The notes beneath the pieces were generated by a model, which was not told the DNA's origin, made no database searches, and saw nothing but the letters and a program-made list of their open reading frames with translations. Shown one piece after another: positions 19,979-31,771 of a stretch of DNA of 64,000 nucleotides. Source of the stretch: Gemmatimonadaceae bacterium (GTDB taxonomy: Bacteria > Gemmatimonadota > Gemmatimonadetes > Gemmatimonadales > Gemmatimonadaceae); contig JANYHT010000033.1 in NCBI GenBank assembly GCA_025358925.1, positions 62,001 to 126,000 on the forward strand, read 5' to 3'. A program made the position numbers and the translations under genes. The stretch's first letter is position 1; each line of letters opens with the position of its first letter.

Positions 19979-20826
19979 ATGGATCACCGCTCGACGGAGG
20001 CGCGGTCGTCAATCTGACGAGTGATGACGGAGCGCGCGTGACGCTGCATCACGATGGTGCCCATGTGTCGTCGTGGATTCCGGCGGGCGAAACGGATGAT
20101 CGCCTGTTCGTGAGCGCACGGTCAACGTTTGGCCGCGGAGCGTCGATTCGAGGCGGCGTGCCGATCATCTTCCCGCAGTTCGCATCAGAAGGACCGTTGC
20201 TTAAGCATGGCTTCGCACGTACAAGCCGATGGTCGCTCCGACATGTGGAACAGCGTCACGACGGCGCGTGTGCCGAGATGGAATTGCGAGATGACGACAG
20301 GACGCGTGCGCTCTGGGCGCATGCGTTTCGCGCAGCACTCGCTGTGCGCGTGGGCGGAGCGACGCTCGACATTGGATTAACCATTGAAAACACCGACAGT
20401 GCGTCATTCGTGTTCACGGTGGCACTCCATTCGTATTTCCGAGTACGCGATGCATATCGCACCGACATCACCGGCCTCGCTGGAACGTGCTATCGTGATG
20501 CGCTGCAGCACCGCGAAGAGTACAACGAAACGAATACCGCGCTGGGAGTTTACGGCGAGATTGACCGCGTATATTTCGATGTATCAGGCCCGCTCAATTT
20601 GCGCGAGCCTGAACGAGGACTTCGAATAGAGCAACAAGGTTTTCGTGATGTGGTCGTGTGGAATCCGGGTGAAAATGGTCTACGTGGAACGACTGATTTC
20701 GTCGCTGGGGAAGAGCGACAAATGTTGTGCGTTGAATCAGCGGCGGTGCACGTTCCGATCGCGCTCGCACCGGGTGAGCAGTGGATCGGACGGCAAATAG
20801 TGACGGCTGTACCGTTAGGGCGCTAA
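19975..20826 (+). CDS. D-hexose-6-phosphate mutarotase (YeaD-like aldose epimerase)
   Basis: 283 residues, the length of YeaD-type mutarotases of the galactose-mutarotase fold. The conserved GGVPIIFPQF, KHGFARTSRW and the mid-protein HSYFRV (catalytic His) are seen, and a late glutamate lies in WNPGENG. These enzymes interconvert alpha and beta forms of hexose 6-phosphates in the cytosol. The start overlaps the VOC stop by 4 bases. Its 3' end overlaps the convergent DUF2723 gene by 12 bases. With the Gfo/Idh/MocA gene it suggests a small sugar-use operon. Confidence 0.87.
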   Translation: MNGSPLDGGAVVNLTSDDGARVTLHHDGAHVSSWIPAGETDDRLFVSARSTFGRGASIRGGVPIIFPQFASEGPLLKHGFARTSRWSLRHVEQRHDGACAEMELRDDDRTRALWAHAFRAALAVRVGGATLDIGLTIENTDSASFVFTVALHSYFRVRDAYRTDITGLAGTCYRDALQHREEYNETNTALGVYGEIDRVYFDVSGPLNLREPERGLRIEQQGFRDVVVWNPGENGLRGTTDFVAGEERQMLCVESAAVHVPIALAPGEQWIGRQIVTAVPLGR

Positions 20827-23142
20827 ACGCAGGGCGCGAGCAAGATTCTCCGCTTCAATCGTCATGGCCTTCGCTTCTTCGGCATCTCCGCGTGCCGCCA
20901 GACCGCGCGCAAGCAGCTGCGCCGTCATGACGTAGAGCGTTGGTATCGATATCGACGCGCCATCAATCCACGTCGGACCAGTGCGCAACGCCGTCGGTCC
21001 CCGATACTCCGCCCACAGCAAGCGAGATCGTTCGACATCGAGAAAACCGCCAGGAATCGCAACGAACTCCGGATGTGTCGACACCGGCGTTTCCAGTAAA
21101 CGTTGCGCTAGTCCTTGTGTGACGATGTAGTTGCCGAGCCCAAGAGCTTGCGCGTACCGACCAACCGAGAAGTAAATCGGACGTGCGGGGAACGCATCTT
21201 TGATCATCTGCAACACGAGGAATTGATCGCGCGTGACCACGCCAGCCGGAATGGTCGCGCTGATACCATTGGTGGCAAACACTTGTGGTTCCGCAAACCG
21301 CACGGCAGGTGGAATTGCGTCGGCTTCAGCGACCGAGAGCGATACCGGAGCCCCGACAGGCATTCGTTTCGCCAGTGCCGCAAAAAGCGGCAGGCCGGAT
21401 CCGTCGTACGGTCGTACCTGAATGCGAAGGAGCTGACGTACGTACCAATCGGCGCCGAGATACGGCACTAGCGTGATCGTCACATCGAGACGAACGCCTT
21501 CTACTTGTTGTGCATACCAGAGCGGAAATGAGTCGTTGTCACCATTCGTGATAATAATTCCGTATGGCTCGACGGACTGGAGCAAATCGCGAGCCCACTC
21601 ACGCGTAAAAGTGTCGCCGCGCCGCGGTGCCTGCGTACGGTTGCCGATCAATGGCACCAGTGCAAGCAGCAGAACTGGCGCGGATAATCGCCACGATTTC
21701 ACGCGCAGAGCGAATGCGCGCCACATGGACGCCAAGCCCACACCCACCCAAATACTCCACGTCGCAAAACTCCACACAAAGAAATAATCGCGGTCGCGCA
21801 CTTCCCTCGGTACACTCTCTCCGAGTTCCGGGCTTTGTGAGGATCCGTATTTAAAGTTGAGATAGTAAATGAGCGCTGGCGTAAGCGTGAAGATGAGCGG
21901 TGCAACAAACGCGAAGGATGCACGATCATTCCGCCAATGCGCAGCAGCACCGAAAAGACCAAGCGTGAGGAACAGCAACGAGAGCGCGTGTTGTAGTGCG
22001 GGATGTTCGTGAAATGCATCACGCCACCATTGCCATTGGAAATAGAGCCACCACATACCGACTTGCGCGCTCAGCGGCGCTTGTCGATCCGTGACATTGT
22101 GCCCTCCGTACTGTTCGCGCTGCATATTGGCATTCAAGCGAGCAAGCGTCACACTGCTAAACGTGCAGTCGAATCGCGGGCCGCCAACGCAGGCGGTTGG
22201 TTCACCTTCGTTAATCGCTGGATTGTGCGCCGCGCGAATGGGTTCAAACGCGAACGGTGTGACGCCAAGCAAGAGTACTACCGCGGCCGCGAGCAGCACG
22301 CGCCACCGTCGCAGCGTGAAGGGACGACGTAATACCATGAACAGTCCAAACGCTGGCAGTGGTAAGAACCCAGCGGGATGATTGGCGTATCCCAAGCCGC
22401 ACACGTATGCGAACATCAGCAGCAATGCGTCGCTGCGTCGTGATTGAGCGGGTGCATCGTACCAGCGCAGCGCGAGCCACGCCGCGATGGCCACACCGAG
22501 CATCGCGACGGTATACACTTTCTCATTTACGACGCTTTGGTTCCATACCGAGAATGCTGTTGCCCCAAGCCAAGCGGAAATCGCTCCGGCGATACGTCGC
22601 GCGGTTTGGGGTAGCCCTGCACCGCGCATCGAGCGATGTGCAACGAGGCACCACAATGCCGCTGAGACCGCACTCGTTGTCGCGGCAAGCAAATTCACTC
22701 GTGCCGCGAAGGACACGGGAATTGGCAGCAGCGCGAACGCGTGCGCAATCAAGACGAAGAGCGGATTGCCCGGCGGGTGCGGTATGCCGAGCACTCGCGC
22801 TACTGTGATGTATTCGCTGGTGTCCCACATCGCGGTGGTTGGTGCCAGCGACCACGCATACAGTGCAAGCACCACCAAAGCAACCACGCTCGCAATGCGA
22901 TACGGCGGTGGGTCGTCGTCTGGTGAGAACGTCAAGACGATTTCTGGTGGCGTCGCATCTATTGCGGCAACCGAGTACCACAACGCGCACGGTAGCAGCA
23001 ACAGGTATCCGAGTACGAGCAGCACCGATGCCACATCGGTGCCGCCGCGCCAGAGATCGATGTAGCCGACTGCAAGTACCGCGCACGTTGCGAGCACCCA
23101 GCCCACAGGGTGCTCGCGAGAAATTCGCGAGAACGCAACCAT
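20815..23142 (-). CDS. DUF2723 multi-spanning protein (glycosyltransferase-like)
   Basis: 775 residues with about ten or more hydrophobic segments in the first 480 and a soluble C-terminal third. The N-terminal WDTSEYITVARVLGIPHPPGNPLF is the hallmark of DUF2723 proteins, which share topology with GT-C protein O-mannosyltransferases; the Asp-Thr-Ser-Glu pair sits in the first large loop as in GT-C catalytic sites. The likely role is lipid-linked sugar transfer to proteins at the inner membrane, which is an inference. It is the last gene of a minus-strand group headed by an ECF sigma factor, with an 18-base gap from the CBM48-type gene. Confidence 0.85.
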   Translation of the reverse strand: MVAFSRISREHPVGWVLATCAVLAVGYIDLWRGGTDVASVLLVLGYLLLLPCALWYSVAAIDATPPEIVLTFSPDDDPPPYRIASVVALVVLALYAWSLAPTTAMWDTSEYITVARVLGIPHPPGNPLFVLIAHAFALLPIPVSFAARVNLLAATTSAVSAALWCLVAHRSMRGAGLPQTARRIAGAISAWLGATAFSVWNQSVVNEKVYTVAMLGVAIAAWLALRWYDAPAQSRRSDALLLMFAYVCGLGYANHPAGFLPLPAFGLFMVLRRPFTLRRWRVLLAAAVVLLLGVTPFAFEPIRAAHNPAINEGEPTACVGGPRFDCTFSSVTLARLNANMQREQYGGHNVTDRQAPLSAQVGMWWLYFQWQWWRDAFHEHPALQHALSLLFLTLGLFGAAAHWRNDRASFAFVAPLIFTLTPALIYYLNFKYGSSQSPELGESVPREVRDRDYFFVWSFATWSIWVGVGLASMWRAFALRVKSWRLSAPVLLLALVPLIGNRTQAPRRGDTFTREWARDLLQSVEPYGIIITNGDNDSFPLWYAQQVEGVRLDVTITLVPYLGADWYVRQLLRIQVRPYDGSGLPLFAALAKRMPVGAPVSLSVAEADAIPPAVRFAEPQVFATNGISATIPAGVVTRDQFLVLQMIKDAFPARPIYFSVGRYAQALGLGNYIVTQGLAQRLLETPVSTHPEFVAIPGGFLDVERSRLLWAEYRGPTALRTGPTWIDGASISIPTLYVMTAQLLARGLAARGDAEEAKAMTIEAENLARALRLAP

Positions 23143-23160: not shown

Positions 23161-23778
23161 TTAAATGGAGTCCGGACTCAAACGCGAAATATTGCGCACG
23201 ACGGGAAGCGGCGCAGGAACGACCACACGCGCATTGTTGACGACATACAAAAACCGCAGCGCGTCGCGCGATACCAATGCGCGGGTACGCCACGCACCAT
23301 CGGTGTCGAGGTGCAGTGGTGACGCGCCGCGCCGCCAAGCATTGAAATCACCAACCACGACCGCAGTCTGCACTGATGGCGCGTGCAACACAAATTCAAC
23401 AACGTGCATGGTGTCAAGCCATGCGTCCGCGACGCCGTGAGAGAATGCAGCGCGGTTGCGAAGCGCGACCACCGTGTCACCGATCACGTGTGCCGCGTTT
23501 GCGAAGACTCCTGACTCGCGCTGGTCCGCCCGGTGAAGCGACAGCGTCGCCAATGCGGTCATAAAAAGCGCGAGCGCGCCAACCGGTGTGAGCAATCCAC
23601 GCCGTGACCAGCGCGACGCGTGCATCGGCGCCGAGAGTCGCTTTGGCAACGGCTCGCGATGTACTCGATCCATAATTGCGGCTCGCGCCGCAACTGTGCT
23701 GCTCGCCGGTTGTTGCAACGCACTGGCGGTCCACGACGGTAACGAGCGCGACGATTGCGGCTCAGATCGATTATGCAT
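23161..23778 (-). CDS. single-pass protein with CBM48/AMPK-type domain, probable anti-sigma partner
   Basis: 205 residues. An Arg-rich cytosolic N-terminus (about 1-60) is followed by one membrane helix (TPVGALALFMTALATLSL, about 62-80). The C-terminal 85 residues, outside the membrane, match the isoamylase-early-set/AMPK-glycogen-binding pattern: VEFVLHAPSVQTAVVVGDFNAWRRG with the key VGDFNxW, then a GAWRTRALV strand and a final RFLYVVNNARV. The ATG lies 8 bases inside the end of the sigma gene, so the two are coupled. The position and topology are those of an anti-sigma factor, but no zinc HxxxCxxC motif is present. A first Met at 23880 would run deep into the sigma gene and is rejected. 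Confidence 0.78.
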   Translation of the reverse strand: MHNRSEPQSSRSLPSWTASALQQPASSTVAARAAIMDRVHREPLPKRLSAPMHASRWSRRGLLTPVGALALFMTALATLSLHRADQRESGVFANAAHVIGDTVVALRNRAAFSHGVADAWLDTMHVVEFVLHAPSVQTAVVVGDFNAWRRGASPLHLDTDGAWRTRALVSRDALRFLYVVNNARVVVPAPLPVVRNISRLSPDSI

Positions 23779-24319
23779 GTATGTGCTCCGCGAGTATCGC
23801 GCGTAATCGGGCGCAGGCCCGTTGCACGCGCATTTTGAGAGCCGACACACCGACTCCCGTGACCGTGGACATTTCGTCAAAACTCAACTCATCGGCAAAA
23901 CGTAAGACGACGGCTTCCCGTTGTTCGGATGGTAACTGTCCAAGCGCTCGCGCAAGTTCGTCGCGTCGATCTGCTGCGGCCCCGACGGCATCCTGATCGA
24001 CCCGCTCTAGATCAAGCGCGGCCACCGATTGTTCGTCACGATACGTACTACGGCGTTCACGGGCCGACTGCGTGCGACATTGATTCAGTAAAATGCGCAT
24101 TAGCCACGCACCAAATTTTTCTTGCTCACGATATCCACCAAGGTGTCGATAGGCGCGAACGAAACTCTCCTGCACGGCATCGTCGGCTGCATCGGCATCA
24201 GCGAGCAGATGCGTGGCGACGCGTAGGCACCGCGCATGATACCGATCAACCAAAAGGGCAAACGCCTCCCGGTCTCCTGTCACCACGCGTCGCACAACTT
24301 GCGAATCCGTCTGTTGCAT
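23771..24319 (-). CDS. ECF-type RNA polymerase sigma factor
   Basis: 182 residues with sigma region 2 (LVDRYHARCLRVATHLLADADAADDAVQESFVRAYRHLGGY, about 23-65) including the DAVQESFVRAYR core, and region 4 (LGQLPSEQREAVVLRFADELSFDEMSTVTGVGVSALKMRVQRA) with its helix-turn-helix. Region 3 is absent, as in ECF sigmas. ATG at 24319 (MQQTDSQVV) is chosen; a Met 20 codons upstream gives a basic extension that ECF proteins usually lack. It overlaps the CBM48-type gene, its likely regulator. Upstream TGTGACGTTC and GTTACTGGTC could be an autoregulated promoter, which is only a guess. Confidence 0.9.
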   Translation of the reverse strand: MQQTDSQVVRRVVTGDREAFALLVDRYHARCLRVATHLLADADAADDAVQESFVRAYRHLGGYREQEKFGAWLMRILLNQCRTQSARERRSTYRDEQSVAALDLERVDQDAVGAAADRRDELARALGQLPSEQREAVVLRFADELSFDEMSTVTGVGVSALKMRVQRACARLRAILAEHIHA

Positions 24320-24385
24320 GACCAGTAACTCGACCCGCGTGCAGAACGTCACATTGAGCCGCCGAAGCGCGGCACCCATTCGGCA

Positions 24386-25242: not shown

Positions 25243-25860
25243 CTACAATGCGCGCGCGTCCAACGTCCTTTGTACGGCACGAAGCGAACCACCAATCGCA
25301 TGCAGCGAGACCAGCGCATGATAGAAGACGTCCGCGACTTCTTCAGTTGCACGCTCGAGGTCGCCGTCGGCACATGCCACCGCAAGCTCAACCGCCTCTT
25401 CACCCAATTTCTTTAATCGTAAATTGCGATCGCCAAAGAGACGTCGCGTGTAGCTCGCACTCGAAGCATCAGCCGTCGCGCGCTCCGCAATCGTCGCGTC
25501 GAGGGTGGCGAGCGCATCTGGCCGTAGCGCCGACTCGCGAAAACACGAAACAGCGCCGGTGTGGCACGCTGGACCGACCGGATGTACGCGTGCAAGTACT
25601 GCATCACCATCACAATCGGGAGAGAGAGAAACGACACGCTGTGTATTTCCACTCGTCGCACCTTTGTGCCAAAGTCCGCGCGTACGCGACGTGTAGTGCA
25701 TCTCACCCGTGGTGAGCGTACGCTCGAGCGCCTCGCGCGTGGCGTGCGCGACCATCAACACGGCACCCGTGATCGCGTCTTGCGCAACGACTGTAACGAA
25801 ACCATTGCTCTTGATGAAATCGAGCGCGTCTAGATCAAGCAAGAACGGTAGCGTTGTCAT
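25243..25860 (-). CDS. hisIE: HisIE: phosphoribosyl-AMP cyclohydrolase / phosphoribosyl-ATP diphosphatase
   Basis: 205 residues in two domains that carry out steps 2 and 3 of histidine synthesis. The HisI domain (about 20-105) has the hallmark HYTSRTRGLWHKGATSGN and the metal site in SPDCDGDAVL plus a later HTGAVSCF. The HisE domain (about 115-205) has RLKKLGEEAVELAVA and the helical EEVADVFYHAL. The ATG at 25860 overlaps the hisN stop by 4 bases; the open frame goes on to 26013 inside hisN and is rejected. It is the last gene of the operon. Confidence 0.95.
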   Translation of the reverse strand: MTTLPFLLDLDALDFIKSNGFVTVVAQDAITGAVLMVAHATREALERTLTTGEMHYTSRTRGLWHKGATSGNTQRVVSLSPDCDGDAVLARVHPVGPACHTGAVSCFRESALRPDALATLDATIAERATADASSASYTRRLFGDRNLRLKKLGEEAVELAVACADGDLERATEEVADVFYHALVSLHAIGGSLRAVQRTLDARAL

Positions 25861-26642
25861 GCACTCTCCGTATGCAAATAAGTCCGCGTGACGACTGCTA
25901 ACGCGGCGTTCGTCGCGATTGCACTCCCGCCGAACGCCGTTGACGCACCATCCCAGTCGGAAAACACTCCGCCTGCTTCCGCAATTATGGGTTGCATCGC
26001 GGCGATATCCCAAGCGTTCACGATGTCATCCACCATAATTTCCGCTCGTCCGGTTGCGACTAAGAGATAGCCGTAGCAATCACCCCATGTCCGCGCTACA
26101 CCCACCCGCGACGCCAGCGAACGCCACTGCGTGCTGCGCCACGACCGTTCGGCAAATCCATCATCCGTGATGAGCGCAGTGGCATTTGCTAACGTTGCGA
26201 CGGACGAGACAGATGCCCGCGCGCCGTTCCACCAACATCCTTCGCCGGGCGCCGCGACCACCAGTTCATTCACGGCGGGAAAGCAGGCGGCGCCCGCGAG
26301 CACCGTATCGCCTTCACAACACGCCACGAGCGTTCCCCACAACGGCACGCCGCGAACAAACGCCTTGGTACCGTCGATCGGATCGAGGATCCAACGGCGA
26401 CGTGCACTACCACCTTCGTCCGCAAACTCTTCCCCTTGAATACCGTCCAACGGAAAACGCGCACGCAACCACGCCCGTGCCGCCAACTCAGCTTCGCGAT
26501 CTGCGATTGTTACGGGTGATCCGTCGTCCTTCCGTTCAACATCAACGGTGCCGCCATACCATCGCATCGCGATCGACGCGGCGAACTGCGCGACCTCGGC
26601 GGCGGCCTGCATTAACGTTTGCGGCGCAATGACCTTAGTCAT
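25857..26642 (-). CDS. hisN: histidinol-phosphatase, inositol-monophosphatase type (HisN)
   Basis: 261 residues of the inositol monophosphatase family: the metal-binding GEEF (in [10 protein letters not shown]), the signature [15 protein letters not shown], and a C-terminal [12 protein letters not shown] with its Asp. Family members hydrolyse several sugar phosphates, but position inside the his operon, coupled by ATGA overlaps to hisF and hisIE, makes dephosphorylation of L-histidinol phosphate the likely job. It would replace the HAD-type phosphatase domain of enterobacterial HisB, which is absent from hisB here. Confidence 0.92.
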
Positions 26643-27415
26643 GCGGCCACCTCGAGTACTGATCGCACCGACAGGCCAGCCAATCGCATGTGCGCTTTCA
26701 GCGCGGCGACTGTCGTGACGTCATCGTGCAAAATACCGGCAACGAGTACGGCGTCAGCATGCCCCTGCGCTATTGCCTCTACGAGATGTGCCGGCAAGCC
26801 TGCACCGCCCGATGCGATCACAGGCACGTGCACGGCGTCAGCAACCGCGCGTGTGAGTGCCAGATCGTAACCAGTGCGCGCGCCATCACGATCAATGGAC
26901 GTGAGCAGAATTTCGCCAGCGCCGCGCTCGACGCATTCCTGCGCCCACGCCAGCGCGTCCAATGGCGTCTCGACACGCCCTCCTTTTACGAACACTTTCC
27001 ACGCTCCATCCGCACCGCGCTTGGCATCGATACTCGCGACGACGCACTGCGCACCAAACCGATGCGCCGCCTCGCTCAGCACCTCCGGACGGGCAACGGC
27101 TGCGGAATTGATCGCCACCTTATCCGCACCCGCACGGAGTACACGCGCCACGTCGTGGGCCGACCGCACGCCGCCGCCAATTGTCAGCGGTATAAACAGT
27201 CGCTCCGCGGTACGTTGTGCAACATCGAGCAGCGTGGCGCGCTCTTCCGCGCTGGCCGAGATGTCGAGGAAGGTGATCTCGTCGGCGCCTTCGCGCTCGT
27301 AGCGCTCAGACAATTGCACCGGATCACCGACATCACGTAACCCTTCAAACTGTACACCTTTCACGACGCGTGCGCCTTTGACGTCGAGACATACGATGAG
27401 TCGCGTGGTGAGCAT
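26639..27415 (-). CDS. hisF: imidazole glycerol phosphate synthase cyclase subunit HisF
   Basis: 258 residues, a TIM barrel. It has the N-terminal half [18 protein letters not shown] with the catalytic Asp11-type residue, DITFLDI in the second strand and the second catalytic Asp in [13 protein letters not shown], which is the mark of HisF rather than HisA. It makes imidazole glycerol phosphate and AICAR from PRFAR with ammonia from HisH. Its stop overlaps the hisN start by 4 bases; it follows hisB by 4 bases. Confidence 0.96.
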
Positions 27416-27419
27416 CTCG

Positions 27420-27962
27420 TTACGTCTCGCTCACCTGGACCTGCACGCTGCCCTTCGTACTAAACACGGCGCCTGACGCAATAAGCGCATCACGAAGCGC
27501 AAGTCCAAGCGCTTTGAACGCCGCTTCAACCACGTGATGCTTGTCGCGTCCGCGCAGCACACGCACATGCAACGTCGCTTTGGCGTTGTCGGCGAACGAC
27601 CGCATAAAGTGATCGTACAACGGCGACGGCAGCGGGCCGCGATAATACGGGCGCCCTCCGATGTCGAGCACGACCTGCACCAGGGCATCGTCCATAGAAA
27701 TCGTGCGTTCGCCGTAACGTGCGCATCCAGCGGGCGCGAACGCCGCGATCGCCTGACCGAACACAATCGCGACGTCCTCAATGAGATGGTGACGCAAATC
27801 GCCCGTGGCTTGCACGTCGAGGTCCACGCCTGCGTAACGCGCCAACGTCACCAGCATGTGATCGAGAAACGGTTCGCCTGTGCGCACGCGAGCGATGCCT
27901 GCTCCCGCCGTGACGGACAAGCGGATTTGCGTTTCCTTCGATTCCCGAACGACGACGGTCAT
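27420..27962 (-). CDS. hisB: imidazoleglycerol-phosphate dehydratase HisB
   Basis: 180 residues, monofunctional size. The two manganese-binding motifs are present: FLDHML near residue 32 and [11 protein letters not shown] near 57; the repeated half shows YDHFMRSFA and the [13 protein letters not shown] motif. It dehydrates imidazole glycerol phosphate in the cytosol. No phosphatase domain is fused, which agrees with a separate hisN. The ATG overlaps the hisA stop (ATGA). Confidence 0.96.
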
Positions 27963-28672
27963 ACTCCGTACTCCTCAGCAAGTCGACGCGCATCAAGCGC
28001 GCCCGTGTATAGGGCCATGCCCAACACCGCACCGGCTAACCCGCGATGCTCGAGCGCGCGTAAATCTTCAAACGATGACACACCACCGGAAGCGAACACC
28101 GGCCACGCACTCGCGTCGGCCACATCTTCCATGAGCGGAAGGTCGGTGCCTTCCATCTTGCCTTCTTTGTGCACGGCCGTCACAAGCACGCCGGCCAGCG
28201 GCAACACAGCCAGCTCCTGCACAAAATCAATCACATCCAGACGTGACGTTTCCGCCCATCCGCGCGTGACTACGCGACGCTCGCGCACATCCGCCGCAAT
28301 GATCAATCGTCCCGGAAACCGATGCGCCATCTCACCGCGCCAATCTTCGTCTTCAATGGCGCGCGTGCCAATCACCACCCACGACGCTCCATCGTCGAGC
28401 AGTCGCTCAATCTGTGTATCCTCACGCACCCCACCGCCAACCTGTACCGGCACGCTCGCCTCACGCAACAAATCGCGAATGACTTCGGTGTTCGCACCAC
28501 GGCTGGTCGCGGCGTCGAGGTCAACCACATGCAACCGCGAGAAGCCAATGCGTGACCAGTCGCGCGCAACCGCCAACGGATCATCCAAGCGCACGCGTTC
28601 ATCCGCATAGTCGCCTCCTACGAGCTGCACGCAGCTGCCACCGCGCAAATCCACGGCCGGAATAACGATCAT
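27959..28672 (-). CDS. hisA: phosphoribosylformimino-AICAR-phosphate isomerase HisA
   Basis: 237 residues, TIM barrel. It starts MIVIPAVDLRGGSCVQL with the first catalytic Asp, has LHVVDLDAA and the QVGGGVRED phosphate loop. The second catalytic position lies in LVTAVHKEGKMEGTD, where ordinary HisA has a Thr-Asp-x-x-x-x-Gly; here it reads Thr-Ala-Val-His, with the acid further on, so this region should be compared with homologues. The ATG at 28672 overlaps the hisH stop; the frame upstream to 28837 lies within hisH and is rejected. Confidence 0.94.
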   Translation of the reverse strand: MIVIPAVDLRGGSCVQLVGGDYADERVRLDDPLAVARDWSRIGFSRLHVVDLDAATSRGANTEVIRDLLREASVPVQVGGGVREDTQIERLLDDGASWVVIGTRAIEDEDWRGEMAHRFPGRLIIAADVRERRVVTRGWAETSRLDVIDFVQELAVLPLAGVLVTAVHKEGKMEGTDLPLMEDVADASAWPVFASGGVSSFEDLRALEHRGLAGAVLGMALYTGALDARRLAEEYGV

Positions 28673-29340
28673 CACATCTCCCCGCGTGAGGACACGGCGC
28701 GCTCGAGCGCGTCGCCGAGAAAGGCCTGCACGAAACGCACTCCAGGCGCGCTCGATTTTTCCGGATGGAACTGCACGCCGACCACATTGTACCGACGAAT
28801 CGCGGCGGGAAAACGATCCTGTCCGTGCGTGCTCCACGCGACGACGGCATCCATCGCCTCTGGCGTCGGACGACAGACAAAACTATTCGCGTAATACGCC
28901 ATGTCGAACATCGACTGCGTAATTCGCGGTTCCTGCACATCGTCTAACCGGTTCCATCCAATCTGCGGCAGGCATCGCGCAGTGAGCTTCGTCACGCGCC
29001 CAGGCACGATACCAAGACCCACGCCGGGCCCTTCGTCGCTGCCGTCAAACAAAAGTTGCATACCGAGACAAATGCCAAGACAGGGCAATCCGTCACGAAG
29101 CGCGTCGTACATCGTATCACGTCCTGATGCTAAGCGTTCGGCCGCAGGCGAGAACGCACCAACCCCCGGCAACACCAGTGCATCAGTGTGCTGCACGGCC
29201 CGCGCCGCATCCGTCTCGACACGCACGTGGGCACCGCGCAATTCGAGCGCCTTCACCAGCGAATGCAGATTGCCAGCGCCGTAATCAAACACCGTAACGC
29301 GCAGCGACTTGTGCGCCGCCGCACCGTGCGTCGTCATCAT
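28672..29340 (-). CDS. hisH: imidazole glycerol phosphate synthase glutaminase subunit HisH
   Basis: 222 residues, a class I glutaminase. The nucleophile Cys is in GICLGMQLLF, the oxyanion region in LPGVGAF, and the His-Glu pair in GVQFHPEKS. It supplies ammonia to HisF. Two Met codons in a row open the gene; the first overlaps the hisC stop. GAGNLHSLVKAL near the start is the HisH-typical glycine-rich turn. Confidence 0.95.
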   Translation of the reverse strand: MMTTHGAAAHKSLRVTVFDYGAGNLHSLVKALELRGAHVRVETDAARAVQHTDALVLPGVGAFSPAAERLASGRDTMYDALRDGLPCLGICLGMQLLFDGSDEGPGVGLGIVPGRVTKLTARCLPQIGWNRLDDVQEPRITQSMFDMAYYANSFVCRPTPEAMDAVVAWSTHGQDRFPAAIRRYNVVGVQFHPEKSSAPGVRFVQAFLGDALERAVSSRGEM

Positions 29341-30431
29341 CCGTTCACCTCACGGAGCGCTGGCGCGAGCGCACTTAGCATGCGCTCCATCAGCGGCCAC
29401 GGCCCGACGCTGATTCGCAACGCGTCACCGACATGCGGCAGCGCGGGAAATGGACGTACCGCGACACCACGCGTGCGCATCGCTTGTCCAACGGCCACGC
29501 ACTGCGCGACTGGCACGCACACAAAGTTGGCCGCCGACGGCATTGGTGCGAGTCCCATCGCGCGGAGAGCACCGGCCAGTCGTTCGCGCAAGGTCACGGC
29601 CAGCGCAACGTGCTCCGCGACCCATTCGGAATCGTATCGTAACGCTGAGAGCGCGACCCGTTCCGCCATCGCGTTGAGTTTGTACGGACCACGCGACTTC
29701 TCGACCTCCATCACGAGCGACGGCTGGCCGATCGCATACCCGAGACGTAGGCCCGCCAACCCGTATGCTTTCGACATTGTGCGAATAATCAGCACGCGCT
29801 CCGACCGTGCGACCAAATCAATGGACGAGACACCCGCGAATTCCGCATACGCTTCATCGATGAACACGACACCGCGCGCGTGTGCGATTGCGCGTTCAAT
29901 GCTCGCGCGCGCGATCAGGGCTCCGGTCGGATTATTCGGCGAGCAGAGATACAGAATTTTCGGAGTGGTCGCGAGCAACGCGTCAATATCTGGTTGATGC
30001 CCAGTGTGCTGAGCGGCCGTTGTCGACCGCTCCGAAATGCCGCGCCAGCGCAAAGCGTTCATCTGCGCAAAAATCGGAATCATTGCAAACGATGGCTCCG
30101 ATCCCGCGACAAGCTCGCCGGGTTCGCCAAACGCACGCATGGCGGAATCAAGAATGTCGTCCGAGCCGCAACCCGTGACGATCATGTCCGCTGACACACC
30201 ATGCAACAACGCCAACTCGGCCTTGAGTTCGGCGGCATACAGCGTCGGATACCGCGTCACCGCCGCGACCGGCATCTCGCGCAATGTGCGCTCAGCCGTC
30301 GGCGGAATGCCCCACAAATTTGTGTTATCTGTGAGATCAAGTTCGACGGCCGTGCGCTTGGGATCGTACAGCGCAACCGCATCGTAGGCCGCGCGCGCAA
30401 ACGCCAAACGTTCCTGCATCGGTGCGCTCAT
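29337..30431 (-). CDS. hisC: histidinol-phosphate aminotransferase HisC
   Basis: 364 residues, fold-type I PLP enzyme. CGSDDILDS, the SPNNPTG motif (LYLCSPNNPTG), DEAYAEF and the PLP lysine in TMSKAYGLAGLRLGY are all in order, ending with RISVG. It moves an amino group from glutamate to imidazole acetol phosphate. The ATG at 30431 forms an ATGA overlap with the hisD stop; an upstream Met at 30455 is inside hisD. Confidence 0.95.
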   Translation of the reverse strand: MSAPMQERLAFARAAYDAVALYDPKRTAVELDLTDNTNLWGIPPTAERTLREMPVAAVTRYPTLYAAELKAELALLHGVSADMIVTGCGSDDILDSAMRAFGEPGELVAGSEPSFAMIPIFAQMNALRWRGISERSTTAAQHTGHQPDIDALLATTPKILYLCSPNNPTGALIARASIERAIAHARGVVFIDEAYAEFAGVSSIDLVARSERVLIIRTMSKAYGLAGLRLGYAIGQPSLVMEVEKSRGPYKLNAMAERVALSALRYDSEWVAEHVALAVTLRERLAGALRAMGLAPMPSAANFVCVPVAQCVAVGQAMRTRGVAVRPFPALPHVGDALRISVGPWPLMERMLSALAPALREVNG

Positions 30432-31771
30432 GCGATCACACTGCGCGAGCGCCACGCACGCGCCGCCGCGGCGTGTCCGGGAAGCCCTTCGGCATCGGCG
30501 AAACGACCAACATCATCGGCCAAACGCGCGGCCGCGTCAGGCGATACGCGTTGCCACGTGGTCCACCGCACAAAATCCAAGGTCGATAATCCCGAGTAGC
30601 AGCGCGCCGCGCCCGCCGTCGGCAACACATGGTTTGCGCCCGTCATATAATCGCCGAAGGCAACAGAACTACTTGGCCCGACAAACACGGTGCCTGCACT
30701 ACGCAATGCGCCCAACGTTTCATCACGCACGTCATCACGGACCACCAAGAGCAGATGCTCTGCTGCCCACGCATTGGAAAAAGTGATGCCCTCTGACAAC
30801 TGCGGTGCTGTCACAATCGCCCCACGCGCCGCCAGTGCGGTGCGTACGATTTCGGCCCGCGGTGCATCGATCAGCAACGCCGCTAATGCGCGTTCTATAT
30901 CGCGCGCCATCGTGGTCGCGTCGTCACCGCACAACATGGCAATGACAGCGGCATCAGGATCATGCTCTGCTTGCGCCAGCAACTCGCGCGCAATCACGTC
31001 GGCCTCCGCACTATCGTCCGCTAACACCAACAATTCACTCGGCCCCGCTGGGGCATCGATGGCCACATCAGACACGAGCTGTAATTTTGCCGCCGCGACG
31101 TAGGCGTTGCCGGGACCAACCACGCGGTCAACGCGAGGCACGGTCTGTGTGCCTAACGCCATCGCCGCAATCGCGCCCGCACCACCAATGGCGAATACGC
31201 GATCAACATTGGCGAGTTCCGCTGCAGCAAGCACCACAGCCGACGGCATGCCATCGGGTCCGGGCGGCGAACAAACGATCACCTCACGTACACCGGCAAC
31301 GCGGGCAGGAATTGCGCCCATCAGCAGCGAACTCGGATACGACGCACGTCCACCGGGCGCGTAGACACCAACGCGCGCTAGTGGATCCGGACGTCGTCCC
31401 ACGGTAATGCCGGGTTCCGGACTGACCTCTGACGCGAACGGGCGAAACACGGCATGCACCGCACCGATATTTCTCTCCGCACGCTGCAACGCTTGCAGGA
31501 GCAACGGATCGAGCGCATCGAGTGCCCGTGACCATGCGGCACGCGGTATCTCAAGCGATTCCAACGCGACGCCATCGAATTCGCGGGCGAATGCGAAGAG
31601 CGCGGCATCGCCTTCGGTGCGCACGCGGGCAATGATACCGCGCGTCCGTTCGCGCACGATGTCGTATTGCGTCTGCGATCGATCCATCAACGCCGTACGC
31701 GTCGATGCGCTCAATGCCGACAGTGCGCCGCGCGCACGGAGCGTCACCGTCTGTACATCGTCAAGGGTCAT
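30428..31771 (-). CDS. hisD: histidinol dehydrogenase HisD
   Basis: 447 residues, zinc and NAD dependent, making the last two oxidations of the pathway. VGPGNAYVAAAK, DAPAGPSELLVLADDSA and the catalytic Glu-His region SEGITFSNAWAAEHL are seen, then the zinc-binding GANHVLPTAGAARCYSGL. Note that the enzyme's usual 'EH' pair is kept in AAEHL. It overlaps hisG by 4 bases at its start and hisC at its end. Confidence 0.96.
   Translation of the reverse strand: MTLDDVQTVTLRARGALSALSASTRTALMDRSQTQYDIVRERTRGIIARVRTEGDAALFAFAREFDGVALESLEIPRAAWSRALDALDPLLLQALQRAERNIGAVHAVFRPFASEVSPEPGITVGRRPDPLARVGVYAPGGRASYPSSLLMGAIPARVAGVREVIVCSPPGPDGMPSAVVLAAAELANVDRVFAIGGAGAIAAMALGTQTVPRVDRVVGPGNAYVAAAKLQLVSDVAIDAPAGPSELLVLADDSAEADVIARELLAQAEHDPDAAVIAMLCGDDATTMARDIERALAALLIDAPRAEIVRTALAARGAIVTAPQLSEGITFSNAWAAEHLLLVVRDDVRDETLGALRSAGTVFVGPSSSVAFGDYMTGANHVLPTAGAARCYSGLSTLDFVRWTTWQRVSPDAAARLADDVGRFADAEGLPGHAAAARAWRSRSVIA

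Follow-up and report, generated by a model that had tools for sequence, protein, structure and literature searches.

Organization of the sigma factor locus

The window, the whole 64,000-nucleotide stretch of DNA analysed here, encodes an ECF sigma factor and a small membrane protein (the partner) whose genes overlap, followed by a gene for a large TMEM260-like protein. The features of the locus are:

24326–24353, reverse strand: promoter-like element TGTGACGTTC-N11-CGAGTTA, 6 bases before the sigma factor ATG
23771–24319, reverse strand: gene for the ECF sigma factor; translation from the ATG at 24319 gives 182 aa (Pfam Sigma70_r2 and r4_2)
23771–23778, reverse strand: 8-base overlap of the two genes (sigma reading frame ends at 23771, partner ATG at 23778)
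23161–23778, reverse strand: 205-aa single-pass membrane protein, a putative anti-sigma factor with a degenerate CBM48 domain
23599–23778, reverse strand: cytoplasmic N-terminus of the partner, residues 1–60, putative sigma-binding segment with two predicted short helices and no zinc motif
23536–23592, reverse strand: single transmembrane helix, approximately residues 63–81 (hydropathy; model helix 65–81)
23224–23418, reverse strand: outer CBM48/AMPK-beta-like beta-sandwich, residues 121–185 (structure model, Foldseek)
23335–23358, reverse strand: VVGDFNAW motif, residues 141–148, the portion of the sugar site that is kept
20815–23142, reverse strand: TMEM260-like putative protein O-mannosyltransferase, 775 aa (PF11028, E 2.4e-39), 18 bases downstream of the partner gene

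The sigma factor is a short protein in which Pfam searches identified sigma-70 region 2 (1.8e-14) and region 4 (6.3e-13) only, as expected for an ECF factor, and it scores 75.2 bits against the general sigma model TIGR02937 (cut-off 42.9). A longer reading frame opens at 24379. The start adopted in the original prediction, the ATG at 24319, is supported because the conserved promoter-like element sits 6 bases upstream of it. Overlaps of 8 bases occur in 59 and of 4 bases in 50 of the 159 sigma-linked relatives described below (109/159 for either length).

Much of the original prediction for this locus is confirmed. It had proposed an ECF sigma factor overlapping by 8 bases (23771–23778) a protein with one membrane helix and an outer domain of CBM48 type but lacking a zinc anti-sigma motif, with a DUF2723 glycosyltransferase-like gene next in line. 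The pairing and the overlap are as described, the single helix is evident from both hydropathy and the structure model (65–81), and the downstream protein matches PF11028, the family formerly called DUF2723. A histidine biosynthesis cluster (25243–30455, with names read from translations) lies next to the sigma pair and has the same orientation. No such cluster was seen adjoining any of the 15 orthologous loci tested.

Architecture of the partner protein

The partner has one hydrophobic stretch, the best 19-residue window of which begins at residue 61 (mean hydropathy 1.8) and is preceded by RWSRRG. In the N-terminus, helices are predicted at residues 16–21 and 25–41; a three-helix bundle with a fourth, sigma-contacting helix is a feature of class I anti-sigma domains, and the model gives a pair of short helices with confidence that is low to medium. 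The outer beta-sandwich is modeled with a pLDDT of about 78–92 up to residue 180, and the best Foldseek matches of the model are the CBM48 domains of GlgB branching enzymes. Model and structural matches together identify a CBM48 beta-sandwich.

The original prediction had suggested an HMM comparison of the C-terminal part. The window protein itself scores 17.3 bits against CBM_48, below the Pfam cut-off of 22.4. The profile of its relatives, which the window protein matches at E 1.2e-15, matches AMPK-beta and GlgB structures (1z0n at E 1.3e-7). A relative with an intact site (L034) superposes on the AMPK-beta1 glycogen-binding domain 1z0m with Z 13.4 and 1.4 Å over 81 residues. The genome that contains the window also encodes two near-identical GlgB-like proteins (contigs C2 and C41).

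Distribution of the family and conservation of gene order

The partner belongs to a large family that is common in Gemmatimonadota. An ECF sigma gene lies directly upstream on the same strand in 159 of 164 distinct full-length relatives; the other five comprise four that begin at the edge of a contig and one, L267, for which no sigma gene was found. Before the 164 were counted, duplicates in C-terminal sequence were dropped, as were matches below 60 bits or short of the N-terminus (GlgB, CBM48-tailed proteins and L133). One further locus (L135) gave no family reading frame. Because the arrangement is kept in 159/164 relatives, the pairing is more than chance. Absence of the arrangement in relatives had been named beforehand as grounds for rejecting the prediction, and the opposite was found.

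A protein search of the phylum matched 84 of 200 genomes and a profile search 284 of 395, a count that takes in CBM48 enzymes and is not the number of anti-sigma factors. All sigma-linked members with names are from Gemmatimonadota, which makes this phylum the very probable source of the window. A sigma gene adjoins the match in only four of 44 named loci, these being assigned to Gemmatimonadales, Gemmatimonadetes or Gemmatimonadaceae; L060 has a sigma gene elsewhere in the locus, beside a frame that matches weakly (16 bits). For 40 genomes from outside the phylum, a non-random set picked for a CBM48 motif, none of the matches listed covers the first 32 profile positions. Most of the listed matches fall within the CBM48 part, and both of those beginning before position 60 are interrupted by stop codons.

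About half of the family loci, as well as contig C25 of the genome that contains the window (L157, 5373–8611), share a four-gene order: ECF sigma factor, CBM48 anti-sigma-like protein, a secreted helical protein of about 210 aa, and a barrel-like protein with a CBM48 tail. On C25, the sigma/partner pair, the second in this genome, has an intact sugar site and is followed by genes for proteins of 224 aa and 480 aa. A further downstream gene matches the CBM48-tailed, barrel-like model in at least 77 of 143 testable loci, a lower bound given the short flanks and the loss of the CBM48 end in some loci. In 7/9 loci inspected, the intervening frame has about 210–270 codons and mostly a secreted-protein-like start. 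The CBM48-tailed protein may reside in the outer membrane; OMP_b-brl was found in one of five such proteins, below cut-off. The window operon is without a CBM48-tailed gene.

Evidence for a probable anti-sigma function

None of 160 family members has an HxxxCxxC zinc motif, and none has two or more cysteines in the first 70 residues, which agrees with the predicted absence of a zinc anti-sigma motif. No Pfam anti-sigma domain was identified in the 28 members scanned, and in the same 28 there was no match to the cytoplasmic RsgI_N domain (Pfam, E up to 5). The NCBIfam model NF052375, annotated as an anti-sigma factor, matches eight of the 28 at E up to 1 (best 8e-6), and these matches fall far under the model cut-off (at most about 25 bits, compared with 100). 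When ten members were scanned singly, five matched NF052375, over the N-terminus and transmembrane helix. The window protein itself has no NCBIfam anti-sigma match.

Pairwise distances between sigma factors correlate with those of the partner N-terminus at r 0.62 and with those of the CBM48 domain at r 0.46, although correlation between sigma factor and partner is also expected from shared descent. The largest values in 200 permutations were 0.05 (N-terminus) and 0.11 (CBM48). Resemblance of some relatives to an anti-sigma model, albeit under its cut-off, makes a membrane anti-sigma role likely for the 205-aa partner.

Loss of the sugar site in the window clade

Sugar-site residues were placed by alignment to AMPK-beta, with the roles that they have there; the site aromatics are W100 and W133 in AMPK-beta1. 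Of 159 relatives, 143 retain the first aromatic and 128 retain both. Losses are concentrated in the clade of the window protein, where the first aromatic is lost in 16 of 21 members (0/138 outside) and the second in 21 of 21 (10/138 outside). The window protein retains the first aromatic (W148) and has V in place of the second and D at the Asn position, so it does not have the two aromatics of CBM48/AMPK1_CBM domains. The clade is recovered in full in the partner tree (21/21, support 0.87), and in the sigma tree with one extra member (L013; support 0.78).

Among nine close relatives that were aligned, residues of the N-terminus, linker and strands are conserved and the GDFNxW region is variable. 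With sigma distance matched, divergence inside the clade is 0.51 for the N-terminus and 0.65 for the CBM48 domain, as against 0.68 and 0.51 outside it. Thus, because the clade has lost site residues and its CBM48 domain outpaces the N-terminus, we conclude that the window copy is probably not a glucan sensor. Retention of GDFNAW means that some sugar binding may persist. Sugar sensing by the window copy was the starting idea; it was downgraded after the site comparison, and the predicted binding of sugar is not upheld, site residues being lost across the clade.

Promoter-like element and downstream gene

Upstream of the sigma gene, the clade shares the consensus TGTGACGWTY-N11-CGRGTTA. The copy at 24326–24353 is the only match with zero or one mismatch in its own genome, and a copy with zero to two mismatches lies just before the sigma start in 14/14 genomes of the genus, all chosen for carrying the system. 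TGTGAC alone occurs upstream of 68 of 138 other family sigma genes, compared with 9.6 expected. Classical GGAAC-type ECF promoters were not enriched upstream of 159 sigma genes. At up to three mismatches, the own genome has 36 matches to the element and 26 to a reversed control; outside sigma genes, the 14 genomes have 17 and 16, respectively. We claim no wider regulon, as there is no excess of the element outside sigma genes.

The TMEM260-like gene is directly downstream of the pair in 7 of 15 orthologous loci. Four of the 15 (L145, L149, L150 and L151) have in its place a frame of about 55–60 codons whose similarity to the TMEM260-like protein is confined to membrane helices one and two; this frame could be either a remnant or a stand-alone small membrane protein. 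In one genome (G068), the TMEM260-like gene is unlinked, about 5 kb away, and an element with two mismatches lies 54 bases before its ATG (L144, 1398–1425); this case consists of one site. In another (G406), the gene is about 10 kb away and has upstream a copy with three mismatches that may be due to chance. The TMEM260-like gene is a probable member of the operon and the likeliest output of the sigma pair.

Proposed mechanism and alternatives

We consider it probable that the two genes encode a sigma/anti-sigma pair in which, within the window clade, the outer domain has lost its sugar site and either senses something else or serves as a scaffold. The short N-terminus of the partner would tether the ECF sigma factor to the inner membrane, and a change sensed by the outer beta-sandwich would free it via proteolysis or a change of shape. 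Free sigma factor would then transcribe its own operon from the TGTGAC...GAGTTA element, which is identified by conservation, as a nearly leaderless message, raising the levels of sigma factor, anti-sigma factor and the TMEM260-like putative glycosyltransferase. Most family members keep the CBM48 sugar site, and many could therefore be sensors of an alpha-glucan-like compound or another glycan. In the window clade, where the site has decayed and the sigma-side segment is conserved, the outer domain would most likely sense something else, such as a protein or a glycosylated partner, or act only as a scaffold.

The version given in the original prediction, that the outer domain binds a sugar polymer and thereby releases the sigma factor, has in its favor the CBM48 fold, the retained VVGDFNAW, the two aromatics in 128/159 relatives and the clostridial RsgI proteins, which follow such a plan. 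For the window protein we regard it as unlikely, however, since V replaces the second aromatic and D the Asn equivalent, and the site is lost across a clade in which CBM48 drifts faster than the N-terminus. It is also rather improbable that the partner is a membrane protein merely co-transcribed with the sigma gene and not an anti-sigma factor. The lack of a recognized Pfam anti-sigma domain would fit such a protein, but the near-universal coupling, gene overlap, topology, sub-threshold anti-sigma-like matches and tracking of the sigma factor by the N-terminus all argue against this reading.

It is quite possible that the outer domain docks another protein and that a change in this contact releases the sigma factor; examples would be the TMEM260-like enzyme or what it produces and, in relatives, the barrel-like protein with a CBM48 tail. 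Docking is compatible with the sigma/anti-sigma explanation and refines it. The downstream CBM48-tailed gene in 77/143 testable loci is consistent with docking, as is the state of the window clade, in which linker and strands are conserved and the sugar site is not, although the window operon has no CBM48-tailed gene.

Beyond the sigma/anti-sigma pair itself, we tentatively suggest a widespread glycan-surveillance family in Gemmatimonadota, comprising ECF sigma factor, CBM48 anti-sigma factor, secreted helical protein and CBM48-tailed outer-membrane-like protein. The sensor of the window clade may have been repurposed, with the sugar site lost, and could govern a protein-glycosylation enzyme via nearly leaderless autoregulation of a single operon. 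These loci point to a signaling family on the scale of a phylum in poorly studied bacteria, and intact and decayed sugar sites on one type of sensor provide a built-in comparison. The promoter element and probable target gene are named and open to immediate testing. A CBM-type match on a sensor should be taken to mean sugar binding only after the site has been checked.

Comparison with known systems

No description of a CBM48 anti-sigma factor came up in the literature searched; the ECF re-classification (NAR 2021) may contain one. The outer domain shares its fold with the AMPK-beta glycogen-binding domain and the CBM48 of GlgB, and differs in being membrane-anchored and sigma-linked; in the window protein, some of the binding residues are gone. 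CnrY-type (class II) anti-sigma domains have a very short, two-helix cytoplasmic segment, as is predicted for the partner, and their outer part is not known to be related. The cytoplasmic part of the partner differs from class I (ASDI) domains in having no more than some 60 residues, in which two helices are predicted. Class I proteins such as RskA and RseA share other features with the partner: membrane-bound forms are common, they are co-encoded with the sigma factor and the zinc motif is optional (PMC7406223). The same survey reports that about 44% of class I ECF anti-sigma factors are without the zinc motif, and that the majority of ECFs in Gemmatimonadetes, about 79%, have a linked class I anti-sigma factor (PMC7406223).

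Clostridial RsgI proteins are established examples of anti-sigma factors whose exterior binds carbohydrate (PMC4711584; PMC12203970), so the suggestion that the present pair represents a different signaling design is not supported. RsgI anti-sigma factors of Clostridium thermocellum carry outer carbohydrate-binding modules (PMC4711584). SigI/RsgI shares with the present system an N-terminal sigma-binding part, one membrane segment, a C-terminal outer carbohydrate-binding module and several paralogues per genome (PMC4711584). SigI, unlike the sigma factor here, is not an ECF factor; the N-terminus of RsgI is a different domain of about 165 residues; and the RsgI modules are CBM3, CBM42, PA14 or GH10 rather than the CBM48 found here, which in the window protein has a degraded sugar site.
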